A stretch of DNA of 64,000 nt from Phytophthora quininea (Eukaryota > Oomycota > Peronosporomycetes > Peronosporales > Peronosporaceae). Shown here piece by piece: positions 17,776-53,386 of the stretch. Every line of letters begins with the position of its first letter. The stretch's first letter is position 1. The stretch is from assembly GCA_011947345.1 (NCBI GenBank), contig JAAVTG010000302.1, positions 2,501 to 66,500 of the forward strand, written 5' to 3'. The notes beneath the pieces were generated by a model that saw only the letters and a list, made by a program, of their open reading frames with translations, had not been told where the DNA came from and searched no databases. Both the position numbers and the translations under genes were made by a program.

Positions 17776-18484
17776 TCACGGGTTCGACGGCCAAGCCTTC
17801 TCGAGGTTCGCCAGGAACGTGCTGTCTTTGAATGGCACCTCTGCGGGGTCGAAGCTGGTGTTGTTTAGAGCTGGACGCGCTGGCTCAGGGAGTTGGCTCC
17901 ACAAAACCAACTGCTGGACCTCGCCAGCATACATACCAAGACTCGCTGAGTCTTGTCACCTACTAGGTGACCAGTGGCACCTTCCCTCCAGCAAGGTAGT
18001 CGTCCAGAGCAGTATATTTCCGGTATCCATTCTCTGACGACGTCGAAATCGCCAAGATAATCGCGTCGCCATCGAGTGCAGGGTTATTGATCCACACGAC
18101 GATGTTCTCCCAGTCGTGGCGATGGCCTTCGCCCGAACGAGCCGAGTCTTTGGGGAAGTACCATGCGTACATGATGGCCCACCAGTTATTGAACCAAGCC
18201 GAGCGGGCGTACACTTGCGAGGTCGCCCCAAAGCCTCTGCAACCTGAATTGGTGGGCCCTGTGGGTTTCAAACCGCCACTTGTTTGTCCTTCAGCATTCA
18301 CTGCAGGGTAGGAGTGACACCCGCTGATGATGTTGAGTTGGGGCTTGAACCGAACAGCAGCAATCTCCGAGATGGTCTTGGCCTCACTTTGGAAGATCGC
18401 CTTCACATCATCATGACGAACGGTGTCTGCTTGAACTGCGGCGAAGGTGGCAACAAGTGCAACAAGAAAGCCATGAAGGTTCAT
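17776..18484 (-). pseudogene. NLP gene with intact heptapeptide but broken 3' part
   Basis: Starting at 18484, the first 19 residues form a signal peptide (hydrophobic core LVALVATF, end AVQA), followed by RFKPQL, the Cys/YPAVNA segment, AIMYAWYFPK and an intact GHRHDWE heptapeptide at residues 120-126. This identifies an NPP1/NLP protein, secreted and acting on plant membranes. The frame meets two stops at about 17971-17976, inside a 17-bp near-palindrome. The family C-terminus (ending EKAWPSNP) follows in another register to a stop at 17776. Without the C-terminal part the fold would be incomplete. Whether the break is real or a read error needs checking. A further in-frame ATG lies 15 codons upstream. 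Confidence 0.85.
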
Positions 18485-18933: not shown

Positions 18934-20445
18934 ATGACAACGTCGCGCGGCATCTGCGAGTATTTCTACACGGACTGCGGTGGGGGAATGTTCTCCTGCA
19001 AGGAATGTGGTAAATCCCGGAAGCAAGCGCCAGGAGCCGGCTACAGCAACCTCGTCAGCCATCTCGCCACCAAGCACCCGGGATACCTGCAAAACTTCGA
19101 GGCCAGCCAGCTAAACGGTGGCGCCACTTTGGAGGCCCACGGCTTCGTGGACCAGAGGACGATGGAGATATACAAGTGGATGGAATGGGTCATCGTGAGG
19201 AACCACTCTCTCAGCGAAGTCGACGACCCCCTCACCCGCTCTCTCGCAAGTGTTGAGCCCGTTTCTTCGAAAACGCTGCAGCGCTACATGCGCCATGTTG
19301 CTGAGCGTGTTGGCGCCAAGATCTCAGCAGCCATGGGAGATTCATTTGGGCTCATGTTCGACGGCTGGTCGTGCGGAACGATCCACTTCGTTGCCATCTA
19401 CGCTGTGTTTGTTCGGGAGGGCGATCTGAGGCAGCCGTTGCTCTCAATCTCTCATGCAGAGCATGGGCAGAGTGCTGATGCCCACATTGCCATGATCGAC
19501 GCTGTGCTATCCGTCTACCACAAGACTACGGAGATGGTTCTCTTCATCGTGAGCGACAATTGCCCAACGAACCAGGCCATAGCGACCCGGCTGGGCGTTC
19601 CACTGGTTGGATGCGCCAGCCATCGGTTTAACCTCGCTGTCGGTCGCTACCTCAAGGACTTCCAAGACCTGATTGATCAAGTTCAAGCTCTCTGTATCCA
19701 GCTACGCCTTCCGAACAACAGTGCTAAGCTGGCACGCTTCACGGATCTCAAGCCGTTGAAGGCTAACGTTACGAGGTGGTCCTCGACTTTCAACATGTTG
19801 TCGCGGTACGTCAAGATACGTGATGCGATCAAGATGGTTGCTGCTGTTGAAGACTTGTTACCGCGTCCGAGCACCCACCGCAAAATTGTCCAGCCTGTCG
19901 AGAAGCTTGCTGATTTGGACAGCGTCTGTGTGCATCTGCAATCGGAGCGGCGAAATCTCGCTGACGTTCGTCTTCTATTCGACGCTGTCATTGCAAAGTA
20001 TCCGTCAACAGCTGACGACCTCAAGCCGACAACCAAGATTATCCACTCTCCTGAATTCGAGAGTGCGATAGTAAAGTTACTGTCAAACCGGTCGCTAAGT
20101 TCGCAGGAAGAAGACGCTGTTGCTGGATTCGCTGTCCTCTCAACGGCTCGTGAGAAGAAAAACGACAAAGAGGATTTCGCTACGGCTACTCTCCGTCAGG
20201 CGAAGCGCCCTCGTCACTCTTCGATCTCCAAGTATCAAGACATACTGTGTATGATTCCACCAACAAGCAATCGTTGCGAGCGCTTGTTTTCACAGTGCAC
20301 GTTAGTCCTGACACCGCTTCGCTCACGCTTACTGCCGGCGAACTTCGAGACCATTGTCTTCCTACGCTGCAACCGAGAGCTGTGGGACTTCACTACGCTC
20401 CTTGGTGGTGAAAGCGCCCCAGTTGAGCCTGTAAATGCTGTCTAG
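18934..20445 (+). CDS. hAT-family transposase
   Basis: 503 residues without interruption. The N-terminus has a BED-type zinc finger (CKECGK near residue 22, then HLATKH). The catalytic RNase H-like part shows the first Asp in LMFDGWSCG, the second in [12 protein letters not shown], and the hAT CxxH motif in [11 protein letters not shown]. The C-terminal hAT dimerisation region reads [20 protein letters not shown]. The expected third acidic residue lies at the start of that C-terminal region, but its exact position was not settled. The protein cuts and joins element ends during cut-and-paste transposition in the nucleus. The start at 18934 is preferred to 18892 because the leading residues add nothing conserved. 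Confidence 0.9.
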
Positions 20446-49482: not shown

Positions 49483-50565
49483 ATGATGCCCGCGCCACGA
49501 GCAGTGCTGTGTCTGCTGCTGGTCGCGTTCGTCTGCAGCGCCGAGGCCAAGAACTACTTTAACCAGTCGGCCGGGTATGTGATCGAGATCTCGACGGATG
49601 ACTGGAGCAACTACGACTCGGAAGGCGGCTGCGTCACCTGTCCGTACACGTGCATCGCCCCCACCACCAGCTACGACGGTACCACCATCAACTCGAGCAA
49701 CACGACCCAGACGGCGTCGCTGCCGAGTATCTACACGGAGGTGCAGAGCAACGGCTGCTGCTACTCCAGCACGTCCAGCACGCAGCCGTCGTGCTCGACC
49801 GAGGCGAGTCCGTCGACCGCCGAGAACTGCGGCTTCTTGTACGGCCCCACGCTCAAGTGGCGTATCAACAATGCGCTCAAGCCGCTGAGTGACTCGATGA
49901 CGGCGATCCTGTTCGCGTCCACCGACTGCGAGAGTTTCTGGGCCGTCGGCAAGCAGGCCATCCGCTACACGAGCAACACCAAGGCCGTCAAAGGCTCCAA
50001 GATGATCCAGCACGGCTGCTACGGAGACCCGAACGGCGTCCCCATCGTGCTGAGCGGCTGCTTGACGTCGATGCTCACCTACTCCAAGACCAAGACGTAC
50101 ACATGGAAGAACTTGGCCGAGAAATGCCAGGGACTCGCAGGTCGCTGCGTCATCACCAACGCCGTGTGGGAGGAGCACTTGGAATGTTGTACCTCTCGAA
50201 CCGGTCTAGCATCGGACTGGGACACGACCTACTCGACCTACACCAAGACAGCGTCCACCTCGACCACGTTGAGCGGCCCTGCCATCACGGGCATTGTCAT
50301 TGGCGGCGTGGCGCTGCTCATGTGCCTCATCCACTTTGGCGCCAAGGTGCGCGAACGCGCTCGCCAGACGGCTTTGATGCGTGAGCAGGAGGCTACCGAC
50401 GACTACGACGAGATCATGACGCCGCTCACGGGCGCTCAGAGCCAACAACCCGTGGCATTGCAACGTCCCATCGGCCCTGCATCTCTAGAAGTCTCGCTTC
50501 ACGAAGGCGACCAGATCTACCGCAAGAAGGAGGACGAGCTGCTCTTCGAGGGCGACATGTATTGA
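49483..50565 (+). CDS. Secreted type I membrane protein of unknown function
   Basis: A signal peptide (residues 1-23, ending AEA) is followed by about 240 extracellular residues with many Cys (CVTCPYTC, GCCYSS, CGFLYGP, LECCTSRTG) and N-glycosylation sites. A single membrane helix follows (GPAITGIVIGGVALLMCLIHF, near residue 275), then a cytosolic tail of about 70 residues with acidic and tyrosine motifs. The topology is that of a surface receptor or wall-associated protein. I do not recognise the ectodomain. Position next to CesA3 may be chance. The second ATG at 49486 would serve equally. Confidence 0.7.
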   Translation: MMPAPRAVLCLLLVAFVCSAEAKNYFNQSAGYVIEISTDDWSNYDSEGGCVTCPYTCIAPTTSYDGTTINSSNTTQTASLPSIYTEVQSNGCCYSSTSSTQPSCSTEASPSTAENCGFLYGPTLKWRINNALKPLSDSMTAILFASTDCESFWAVGKQAIRYTSNTKAVKGSKMIQHGCYGDPNGVPIVLSGCLTSMLTYSKTKTYTWKNLAEKCQGLAGRCVITNAVWEEHLECCTSRTGLASDWDTTYSTYTKTASTSTTLSGPAITGIVIGGVALLMCLIHFGAKVRERARQTALMREQEATDDYDEIMTPLTGAQSQQPVALQRPIGPASLEVSLHEGDQIYRKKEDELLFEGDMY

Positions 50566-50714
50566 AAATTAATACCGATCCTGCTGCTTTCCTTTATTGT
50601 TTTGGTGGAGTTGCCGGACCGGCGGCCAGCAATGCCTGCAGACGACGCTGCGAGACGACCTGCTTCCTTGAGGTTACCCGATGGATGGCCTGGCTGGGTA
50701 AAATGGATCGGGGA

Positions 50715-52771
50715 TCACTGGTGAGTCGACCGTGGTTGGCGTCTTAGTCTTTCTGGCCGTGTGGGGTCACCTCGTAGCTGCCGCATGATGATACTGAGAA
50801 TGTTTTTGGTCGCATTCACGTCCCGGTCGACGGTCAAGCCGCAGCCTCCATTCTTCGTCAAGCAGTGCAGGACCTTGTGCACCTTCACGACTTTTTCTTT
50901 TTGGTTGCGGAAGACGCGCTTAGTGGTCTGGTTGGTCATCTTCGCCGCGCATGCACAGTCAAAGTGCATGCAGCTGGTTCTGAACTTGTCGACTACGACG
51001 ACTTCACATCGAGCTGCGAGACGGCGGGCTAATATTTTGACAGGGCCGGCCGGACAGTTCTTGATGTGGGAGTTGCAAGCAGCACCGCTATCACCGCATC
51101 CAATGATCGTCTTTTTGTTGTTTGGTGCCATCTCATTGATGGCACGGTTGATCTGACGGGTCTTCTGAGTGTATCGGTGAAACTTAAGCTTTCTGAAGAT
51201 CTGGCTGTAGCAAAGGTTAGTATCTTGCCTCCATGCTCAAAGAAAAACTTGATGTGCCCCATGAAGACCGATAGACTCGCCGTTTTCTTGGTCAGCGTGG
51301 CTTGAAGGAGGTCGCGCACTTCGGTGTCTTTGGCAATCTCGTTCCTGGAGCGGCAATTCGACCGCATAAACCCGCTGGCAATACAGTATGCAGTCGTGCG
51401 AACGTGTGAAAGCGCACTGACTTCCCGAGGTTGTTCATAGCTGTGATAAAGTCTGTTCGGCCCAAATCAATCCCTCACACAACGTCGTAGTCGGTGAGCT
51501 TGCCCTTCGGTGTCTTGGAGAGCCTGGGTCCCAGGACGTCCGACGTAGTGGCGTAGGCTGCCACGTCGCCGCTCGATCGCCGTTTCTTGGCTCGTTTCTT
51601 CTTGCCTCTGGTAGGGCGGCTTAGTCGAATGCTGACGCCGTATACATCTGTCGAGATCTCCTCGCGAATGCCCTCTTCTCCTCCTTCTCCACTGCGTCGA
51701 TTTGGAAGAAACGATGCCACCACAGGTCGCTGAGCTCTTTCCACTGAGACTCATTCTTCCTGTGCAAACTCTCCCCCAGAGTTCATATCTTGTAGCCAAG
51801 CTCCACCGTCATGGCCAGGTCGGCGTGGGGGCTCCATTTCAGAAGCCCTCGGAATGCACTCGAGTCCATGGTGAAGTAGCCTCGAAGCCCTTTTTGGACG
51901 GCAGCAACCCGTAGACACGAAGCTCATCAACTTTGTCGTTGTCGGCGTTCTGGATGTTGGTAGCCTTAATCTCCTTCAGGAATCCATACATCACCGGCAC
52001 CAAGTCATGCGGTTTCCAGCTTCCTTTGCCGCTAGGAGCTCGCGTAGTCTTGGCACGCAGACTCTGGACCACGGGATCCTTCCCAGTGTAGTCGGCTGCA
52101 AACACCGCATCGAACGAAGTATGACCTTCCTCTTTGTTGAGTACAAGCGTCTCCAGAGTATGTCGTCGCAGTCGCTTGGCGAAGTTCGCCACCACGCTAT
52201 TATGAGTGTTGGTCGCCGTCGCGATGGCAGGTTCCGAATGCTATCCAGTATTAAAATGGGTTACGTTGATTGAAGCCGTGGCACCACGTAGCTGCATGAA
52301 GTCAAAGCCAGCCATCTCCAGCTCTGCGTTGAGCTTGTTTGGTGGCTGCCCGTAGAAGTTTTTGGTCGAAAGCCAGGTCTGAAAGGTCGCTTCTGCGAAG
52401 CGAGGAGACTGTCGGGTGCCAGCACGACCTTGCTCCAGCTGGAATCACTGCTACAGGGATAACTTGGTCCTGGCGCGGTTGGTGACCAGGCTGAGGCACG
52501 TCTGGGAGAACTCCTTGGCCATGACGCCAAGCACCTTCCCGCCCTCCAACTGCCGCAGAACATAAAAGCTTGCAAGCAGGTAGGCTTCGGCGACGGCCTG
52601 GTTAACGTCGAAGAGAACTTCATCCCACGCCAGTGTCCGAGCTTCCTTGCAGCAGAACTGGTGCATGGTCTTCTTGTTGACAAAGAAGTCGAGGGCCTTG
52701 TTACGGTGCAGCCGCTCAGCGACGCCTGGACGAGAATGACGAGCGGAAGATCGATCGACGTCTTGCTCCAT
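50715..52771 (-). pseudogene. Fanzor (eukaryotic TnpB-like) nuclease, decaying
   Basis: From the start at 52771, the N-terminal frame (RNKALDFFVNKKTMHQFC) is followed by DQKLLRAATK, VVANFAKRLRRHTLETLVL (near 52190) and WHRFFQIDAVEK, in several registers. The RuvC core is diagnostic: GIDLGRTDFITAM (near 51440-51478), VVVDKFRTSC (near 50985-51010), and the zinc ribbon ending GGCGLTVDRDVNATKNIL (near 50810-50860). Fanzors are RNA-guided DNA nucleases carried by eukaryotic transposons. Here a TGA precedes GIDL directly, frames change many times, and the residue expected as Glu before FRTS is Lys. The copy is probably dead. No guide RNA or element ends were found. Confidence 0.82.
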
Positions 52772-53386
52772 TCTTGCGCCTTGCTTGCTGGTGTGACGGC
52801 GAATTCAGATATTGAGCTGAGTCGATCTCCTGAAGTAGAATACTACTGTAGCGAGGAGAGCAGGCAGTGCTGCAAGGAAGTTGCACCTTGCGTGTTTTTG
52901 GAAAAATCAAAAGTGAGGAAGGGAAGCTCTCCTTGCACTCCTACTAAACTACTGTAATCCAACACTGCGCAACCAGTCCTGCTCAGATGGCTTTACTCCG
53001 GCACGACTACAAGCGTTGACTTGCAGCTTGGTCGCTTGGTCGCACTACCAATGCTAAATGTTCCTCTCCAGAGCATGTACTAGTAAACCTTCCTCTCCCG
53101 AGCATTAGCCGGTGATCTAGGTCATATCCGAAAATTTTCATGCCCTGCTGTATTCTGAACGCTTCGCTTCGGTCTGTTCAACAGCAAATCGGTCTGGCAA
53201 CGCAGTTGCCACCTTGCATAATCAAGGTGCACGGGCTGTGCTACGGCGTCATGATAGATTTGTACGCCATCTTGAAGACCTTGCTTGTCAAGAGCGCCGC
53301 AGCGTAGATCTTCAATCACGTCTTTTGATTGGTTAAAATCCGAGTGTTGCACTTGGGGATACAAATTTTAAGTCACCCTTCTTTGA
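52772..53386. other. Intergenic between Fanzor and zinc-finger gene
   Basis: Contains two near copies of TTCCTCTCC followed by GAGCAT, near 53058 and 53090. No other structure was recognised; it should hold the 5' side of the element that carried the Fanzor, but no terminal repeat was found. Confidence 0.4.

Follow-up and report, generated by a model that had tools for sequence, protein, structure and literature searches.

How Fanzor elements move, and what benefit their nuclease brings in eukaryotes, are open questions in the field that junctions between such elements and their host DNA address; where filled and unfilled alleles lie in one genome, target choice and repair can be read from those junctions. 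We analysed a stretch of 64,000 nucleotides of the Phytophthora quininea assembly (87 Mb, 993 contigs; G000:C267:2501-66500), hereafter the window, for which a Fanzor nuclease gene had been predicted on the minus strand. Oomycete Fanzor1 is already known and has been in print since 2013, when copies were listed for P. sojae (4), P. capsici (2), P. ramorum (1), Pythium ultimum and Albugo laibachii (Bao and Jurka, PMC3627910). The question raised by this locus is what remains of the gene and how the element came to lie where it does.

Identity and state of the window element

The three protein blocks behind the original prediction, GIDLGRTDFITAM, DKFRTSC and DRDVNATKNIL, were all found on the minus strand, the first (RuvC-I) starting at 51474 and the other two inside the open stretch 50718-51236. 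They are present beyond chance, but they do not belong to one reading frame: RuvC-I lies in one frame, the zinc ribbon and RuvC-III in another and the N-terminal pieces in a third, with stops between. The predicted ends of the gene were exact on the minus strand (ATG at 52771, stop of the last frame at 50715-50717); the limits 50715-52771 hold for the gene but not for the insert that carries it, which spans 50564-53124. The parts of the element are as follows.

50564..53124, no strand: whole inserted segment, 2561 bp against the unfilled allele on contig C736 (L078); 15 bp of target missing, ends uncertain by 1-2 bases
50564..50714, minus: noncoding stretch at the 3' end, a candidate guide-RNA scaffold (omega RNA), from its low pairwise difference
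50715..51236, minus: C-terminal Fanzor1 piece with the displaced RuvC-II glutamate site, zinc ribbon, RuvC-III and stop
50820..50822, minus: codon of the RuvC-III Asp (DRDVNATKN), Asp retained, from the 17-copy alignment
50985..50987, minus: codon of the displaced RuvC-II glutamate (Ealt), Lys in the window copy, from the 17-copy alignment
51295..51474, minus: RuvC-I piece, catalytic Asp kept, DLG where relatives have DPG
51478..51750, minus: piece upstream of RuvC-I, in the frame of RuvC-I and separated from it by a stop
51624..51923, minus: two middle pieces, 51786-51923 and 51624-51782, which share their frame with the C-terminal piece
51842..52240, minus: piece of the N-terminal half, from frame reading and matches to relatives
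52244..52444, minus: piece of the N-terminal half, from frame reading and matches to relatives
52454..52771, minus: N-terminal piece, from the first ATG (52771)
52810..53124, no strand: 5' extra part, from BLAST against the 5' extras of other copies

Taken alone, the pieces were informative to different degrees. The stretch 50718-51236 matched Pfam PF07282 (Cas12f1-like zinc ribbon) with E 2.3e-4 and 21.7 bits, below the curated cut-off of 26.3, and by itself matched no solved structure; the remaining eight of the nine window pieces gave no Pfam match at E <= 1, and a single family copy of 342 aa (L034) did not reach the Fanzor structures. We then turned to relatives. A search with 372 aa of open sequence from the sister copy L042 retrieved 21 proteins from a database of 5.8 billion, from Phytophthora and Nothophytophthora where the organism was given, and most of the full-length relatives carry DPG in RuvC-I, GFGD,.EFRTS (with the Glu), the zinc ribbon and RD.NAS. 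One full-length relative, P0009, matched three ordered minus-strand pieces of the window (E 1.2e-22, 3.8e-16 and 1.6e-13) and, as a single sequence, the Spizellomyces Fanzor1 structure 8gkh (E 2.6e-5). A profile of 17 rows (A1), made of 15 of the 21 relatives and two window-family pieces, matched the Fanzor1 proteins of Spizellomyces (8gkh, E 8.4e-39), Parasitella (9cf0, E 3e-29) and Guillardia (9cer, E 9.9e-23), and its next match after the solved Fanzor1 proteins was a TnpB-like protein (E 1.7e-4). By sequence similarity the window element belongs to Fanzor1 and not to another RuvC family, and the predicted family assignment stands.

The Fanzor fingerprint combines DPG in RuvC-I, which is near exclusive to Fanzors, with a displaced RuvC-II glutamate six residues before the zinc finger (PMC10711439). 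The window copy has neither, reading DLG at the first position (the Pro codon is present in 11 of 17 family copies and absent in 6) and Lys at the second, a position assigned by spacing at which 12 of the 17 copies have Glu and 5 have Lys; moreover, its first zinc pair is HxxC, not CxxC. It retains the RuvC-I and RuvC-III Asp. With its three frames interrupted by stops and its Lys at the displaced glutamate, what had been called a nuclease gene is, in the window copy, a broken relic.

Copies, decay and past selection

The expectation that relatives occur elsewhere in this genome was borne out, with at least 41 rows of DNA matches to the element (window included), 97 rows of protein-level matches for the wider family and at least 15 distinct insertion sites for the DNA family; that any of them is intact was not, as no complete uninterrupted gene was present among the fetched stretches. 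A full open frame is missing from all 17 aligned copies, that of the window among them, and the longest open stretch with a RuvC-III motif among them is 372 aa. The best relatives seen are two copies of a sister subfamily, on C830 and C527, in which the RuvC half is open. Open frames of 725-740 aa on C551 were rejected as candidates for a complete gene, the two copies read being broken into several frames; that region (G000:C551:91000-104000) holds, in 13 kb, three Fanzor1 copies that belong to another subfamily. The copies on C896/C752 (near-identical to each other) and C571, which have the 3' part only, were considered as carriers of some other coding part and discarded; C571 has just the element end in common with the other two. 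The same genome also holds further Fanzor/TnpB-like families with DPG (L002, L003, L011, L012 and others); zinc-ribbon matches number 93 rows genome-wide, and L002 has an open frame of 543 aa.

The frame is lost just before RuvC-I in 11 of the 17 copies, for which the tree requires at least two changes; in the sister subfamily, C669 and C561 have likewise lost the frame there, and C830 and C527 read through. Differences between copies with this loss still fall mainly at third codon positions. A programmed frameshift at this place was weighed as an explanation and not adopted; no slippery site was visible by eye, and some of the breaks are possibly assembly errors. Homopolymers look shortened in this assembly: across 331 kb of window and loci (partly overlapping), G/C runs of length 5 occurred 182 times, runs of length 6 three times and longer runs never. 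With runs of six or more nearly absent, some frame breaks may be assembly errors, and single breaks are not to be trusted without reads. Word counts in the window gave no clear sign of systematic base loss at GGATCC, which is the rarest among its four neighbours (16 against 25-43), as are likewise GGTACC (14) and GGAACC (19).

Pairwise differences among the 17 copies at codon positions 1, 2 and 3 were 11.3, 9.2 and 20.9% in the N-terminal half and 8.4, 8.2 and 15.3% in the C-terminal half, position 3 thus differing 1.8-2.0 times as often, while changes private to one copy (at sites where all others agree) were flatter, at 1.55, 1.37 and 2.07%. The position-3 excess among copies, together with the flatter private changes, indicates past selection on the protein in this lineage and decay of the copies once they have landed. 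The window copy has 15 private coding changes, 6, 7 and 2 at positions 1, 2 and 3, and its decay without selection is supported.

Pairwise differences amount to 8.0% in the noncoding sequence at the 3' end (50600-50714), a level like that of codon positions 1 and 2, and to 14.0% in the short 5' noncoding stretch (52775-52809). Conservation of the 3' end is as expected if it holds the scaffold of a guide RNA. The consensus fold of sixteen 3' ends scored -25.5, against a mean of -10.8 (sd 3.6, lowest -19.7) in 100 column shuffles, and the opposite strand scored -28.1, the fold being not specific to one strand; covariation among the 16 sequences was negligible. The 3' end of the gene probably encoded a guide RNA, and by homology to tested Fanzors the once-intact lineage would have had RNA-guided RuvC endonuclease activity.

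The insertion site and its unfilled counterparts

The 3' end of the element abuts, tail-to-tail, a gene read from the opposite strand:

49483..50565, plus: host gene, 360 aa, conserved in oomycetes, with its natural C-terminus; stop codon made of T (host) and GA (element)

The host gene has 51 homologs, the best from P. nicotianae (89%); the C-terminus EGDMY, which the host gene shares, ends 22 of the 27 homologs whose ends were inspected, and variants of it end the other 5. A copy of the host gene 99% identical to it lies on C736 and lacks the element. This allele is 97.8% identical to the window over 2066 bp, up to 50563, and the match starts again at 53125. At the junction it has TAT TAG plus 13 bases ahead of the right-hand match, where the window reads TAT T followed by GAAAATTAAT; 15 bp of target, counted from the A of TAG, have been lost. 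The first bases of the element complete a TGA in place of the natural TAG, and the host protein is therefore unchanged. After a right-flank match of 97 bp, C736 carries about 0.5 kb of further extra DNA.

Two other filled sites could be compared with unfilled counterparts. In the second pair (L035/L036 against C521) the stop is TAG and about 31 bp were lost; a small difference lies just upstream in L035, and the last residues of the host protein are unlike those of the unfilled copy. In the third (L039 against C727 and C728) the stop TAA is kept and 26 bp were lost. Counterparts were sought for six of the 15 sites and found for these three (window, L036, L039), and not for L060, L053 and L032; C777/C778 was rejected as the unfilled site of L037, the region being too rearranged.

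The right ends at the three pairs are unlike one another. In the window, BLAST matched the 5' extra part (52810-53124) to none of the 5' extras of L036, L037, L039 and L041; bases 2-225 of this part show 75% similarity to C829/C830, where the element used as query had matched just the start of this stretch and nothing else.

These junctions bear on the reading of the locus as a cut-and-paste element. The sequence TATTGA is present on both sides of 50566-52809, and a 6-bp target duplication flanking that segment was our first reading of its ends. This was refuted by the unfilled allele, which sets the right end at 53124, not 52809, and no such duplication exists at the other two sites with unfilled counterparts. 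More generally, target duplication was absent from all three pairs, the terminal inverted repeats and target duplication by which a cut-and-paste element is recognised were both lacking there, and neither transposase nor inverted repeats were seen in the stretches read. We regard this explanation as very improbable. Words repeated on both sides at L041 (11 bases) and L038 (6 bases) are possible target duplications.

The neighbours named in the original prediction, a CesA-neighbouring gene on one side and a zinc-finger-like ORF on the other, agree with the ORF list, the names being given by eye. With regard to the effector-rich setting that the prediction named, a single ORF was noticed, at 17963-18484 (minus), whose motif looks NLP-like (necrosis-inducing-like). 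Elsewhere in the window, 18934-20445 (plus) holds an ORF of 503 aa presumably resembling a BED-finger hAT-type transposase. The host gene has two additional copies at 84% (C246, C681); the assembly looks as if it contained haplotypes together with either a second, diverged set of genes or old duplicates.

Insertion sites at gene ends

To count how often the family lies at gene ends, we used the 15 sites with a readable 3' end (L031, L032, L033, L034, L035, L037, L038, L039, L041, L044, L045, L050, L058, L060 and C571), merging allelic and duplicated copies and placing junctions by hand; copies with no clean left end of their own (e.g. L042, L043, L048, L049, L052, L057, L059) and the left-end matches C893/C894 and C3 were left out. 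A site was counted when an ORF of at least 79 codons with a coding score of at least 12, trained on six window ORFs with the host gene among them, ended 0-5 nt before the junction. The test was confined to ORFs that run towards the junction, which makes the tail-to-tail orientation one of its premises.

Five of the 15 sites satisfied this rule (L031 -2, L032 -5, L035 0, L039 -3, L060 -4). A sixth, L050, was recognised by eye only: a natural-looking end lies 5 nt before the junction if an assembly slip is supposed, the coding score belonging to another frame whose stop is inside the element. The remaining nine sites showed no recognisable gene end. Four stops were verified as natural, in the window by homologs and allele, at L035 and L039 by the unfilled counterparts and at L060, whose host is mannosyltransferase-like, by homologs (in the 21 inspected of 120 listed, the end falls at nearly the same position, with minor differences). 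The rule is satisfied at 0.089% of 121,238 window positions (both strands, insert excluded), and against this background the probability of at least three of 15 is 3.2e-7 and of at least five of 15 is 1.7e-12, values to be read in the light of a rule, thresholds and junction positions that were all fixed after the pattern had been seen. In a cruder first look, ORFs of at least 250 codons ended near 1.15% of 4000 random positions.

A simpler origin of the pattern would be that the element follows a simple T-rich target motif and has no special recognition of gene ends: in a G+C-rich genome, TTA-type words would be scarce in coding sequence and cluster at stops, and insertions within genes would be lost. 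The flanks of the 3' end are indeed T-rich (TTACT, TTAAT, TATT and similar, with junctions placed by hand), and the nine sites away from gene ends fit this origin. However, of the 12,631 window positions where a T-rich word stands at the junction, just 0.25% (0.245%) lay at a strong stop, giving probabilities of 6.6e-6 for at least three and 2.6e-10 for at least five of 15. We see in this explanation a possibility to be taken seriously, with the balance nevertheless against it.

The one-sided ends raise a second possibility, that the carrier is a Helitron-type rolling-circle element with its fixed terminus at 50564 after a T, the other end varying through failure to stop, and the Fanzor gene a passenger on the opposite strand. 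Target deletions of 15-31 bp are unusual for Helitrons and count against it. The fixed end is preceded by T at 14 of the 15 sites (by hand placement), the other end is variable and made of foreign DNA, and Fanzor1 has been described within Helitrons with one-ended copies in Chlamydomonas (PMC3627910). On balance this explanation seems to us somewhat unlikely.

Homing would account for the stop sites differently. The guide would be the antisense of the last codons of the host gene, the unfilled allele would be cut and then repaired from the filled copy, and stop sites would be kept since there the guide matches conserved coding sequence without harm. The guide RNA of S. punctatus extends 14-15 nt beyond the conserved 3' end and there enters variable sequence (PMC10432273), and the flank in our element is the antisense of conserved C-terminal codons; unfilled counterparts at three of the six sites searched are likewise consistent with homing. 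Against this, unfilled alleles persist, the nuclease is broken in the copies seen, the opposite flanks of the three unfilled sites show no common motif by eye, and first entry into unrelated genes is left unexplained. We consider homing unlikely as an account of these sites. We give no more credence to its extension, a Fanzor1 lineage specialised on stops, which would enter by its guide-RNA end, swap the stop codon and thereby gain an antisense guide to the conserved last codons. Were it true, the nuclease could find unfilled alleles, even in related species, throughout the existence of the gene and at no cost to the host, and if the guide truly reads conserved C-terminal codons this would be a natural RNA-guided homing system.

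The reading that we prefer, and hold to be probable as a whole, is that the window contains a dead Fanzor1 copy in a host stop codon, that it arrived by one-ended insertion and has sisters at other stops, and that T-rich preference, mobilisation in trans and decay complete its history. By homology to tested Fanzors, the living lineage would have encoded one protein, an RNA-guided RuvC endonuclease, and the DNA immediately past the element would have supplied the guide part of its RNA. As the unfilled allele shows, the window copy landed in the stop codon of the conserved 360-aa gene and substituted its own TGA. Insertion was one-ended in the three copies with unfilled counterparts, the 3' end of the gene being joined to the target at the stop and the 5' end carrying unrelated DNA, at the expense of 15-31 bp of target, and at least three other family members lie at natural stops of unrelated genes. 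We infer a preference for short T-rich targets of the TTA type near gene ends and mobilisation by machinery supplied in trans; after insertion, the window copy appears to have decayed without selection. The stop-codon sites suggest a route by which a transposon can settle harmlessly in gene-dense DNA.

Compared with the Fanzor1 elements of Bao and Jurka (PMC3627910), the window copy shares the protein family and the transposon-borne state, whereas it is broken and has DLG and Lys in place of DPG and the displaced Glu; the main text of that paper nowhere uses the term "stop codon". With SpuFz1 (8gkh, PMC10432273) the family has in common the RuvC layout (in relatives), a one-ORF element of about 2.1 kb and a conserved noncoding 3' end, but the loci of SpuFz1 are bounded on both sides by well-conserved inverted repeats, and the window family has one conserved end. 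In CRe-1, CRe-2 and CRe-3 of Chlamydomonas and MCi-2 of Mucor, as here, the 3' end is conserved and the 5' end truncated or different between copies; in those families, however, many sites carry target duplications, which in CRe mostly follow TTTT (PMC3627910), unlike the small target deletions (three sites) and stop-codon sites of the window family. A limited search of open-licence literature (titles and abstract starts) showed, among the papers listed, no pairing of Fanzor with stop-codon insertion, and within that search the insertion plan looks new. Homing endonuclease genes and inteins likewise occupy harmless positions in conserved sequence of useful genes; the window family differs from them in that neither intron nor intein splicing is involved, the end of the element itself supplying the new stop.
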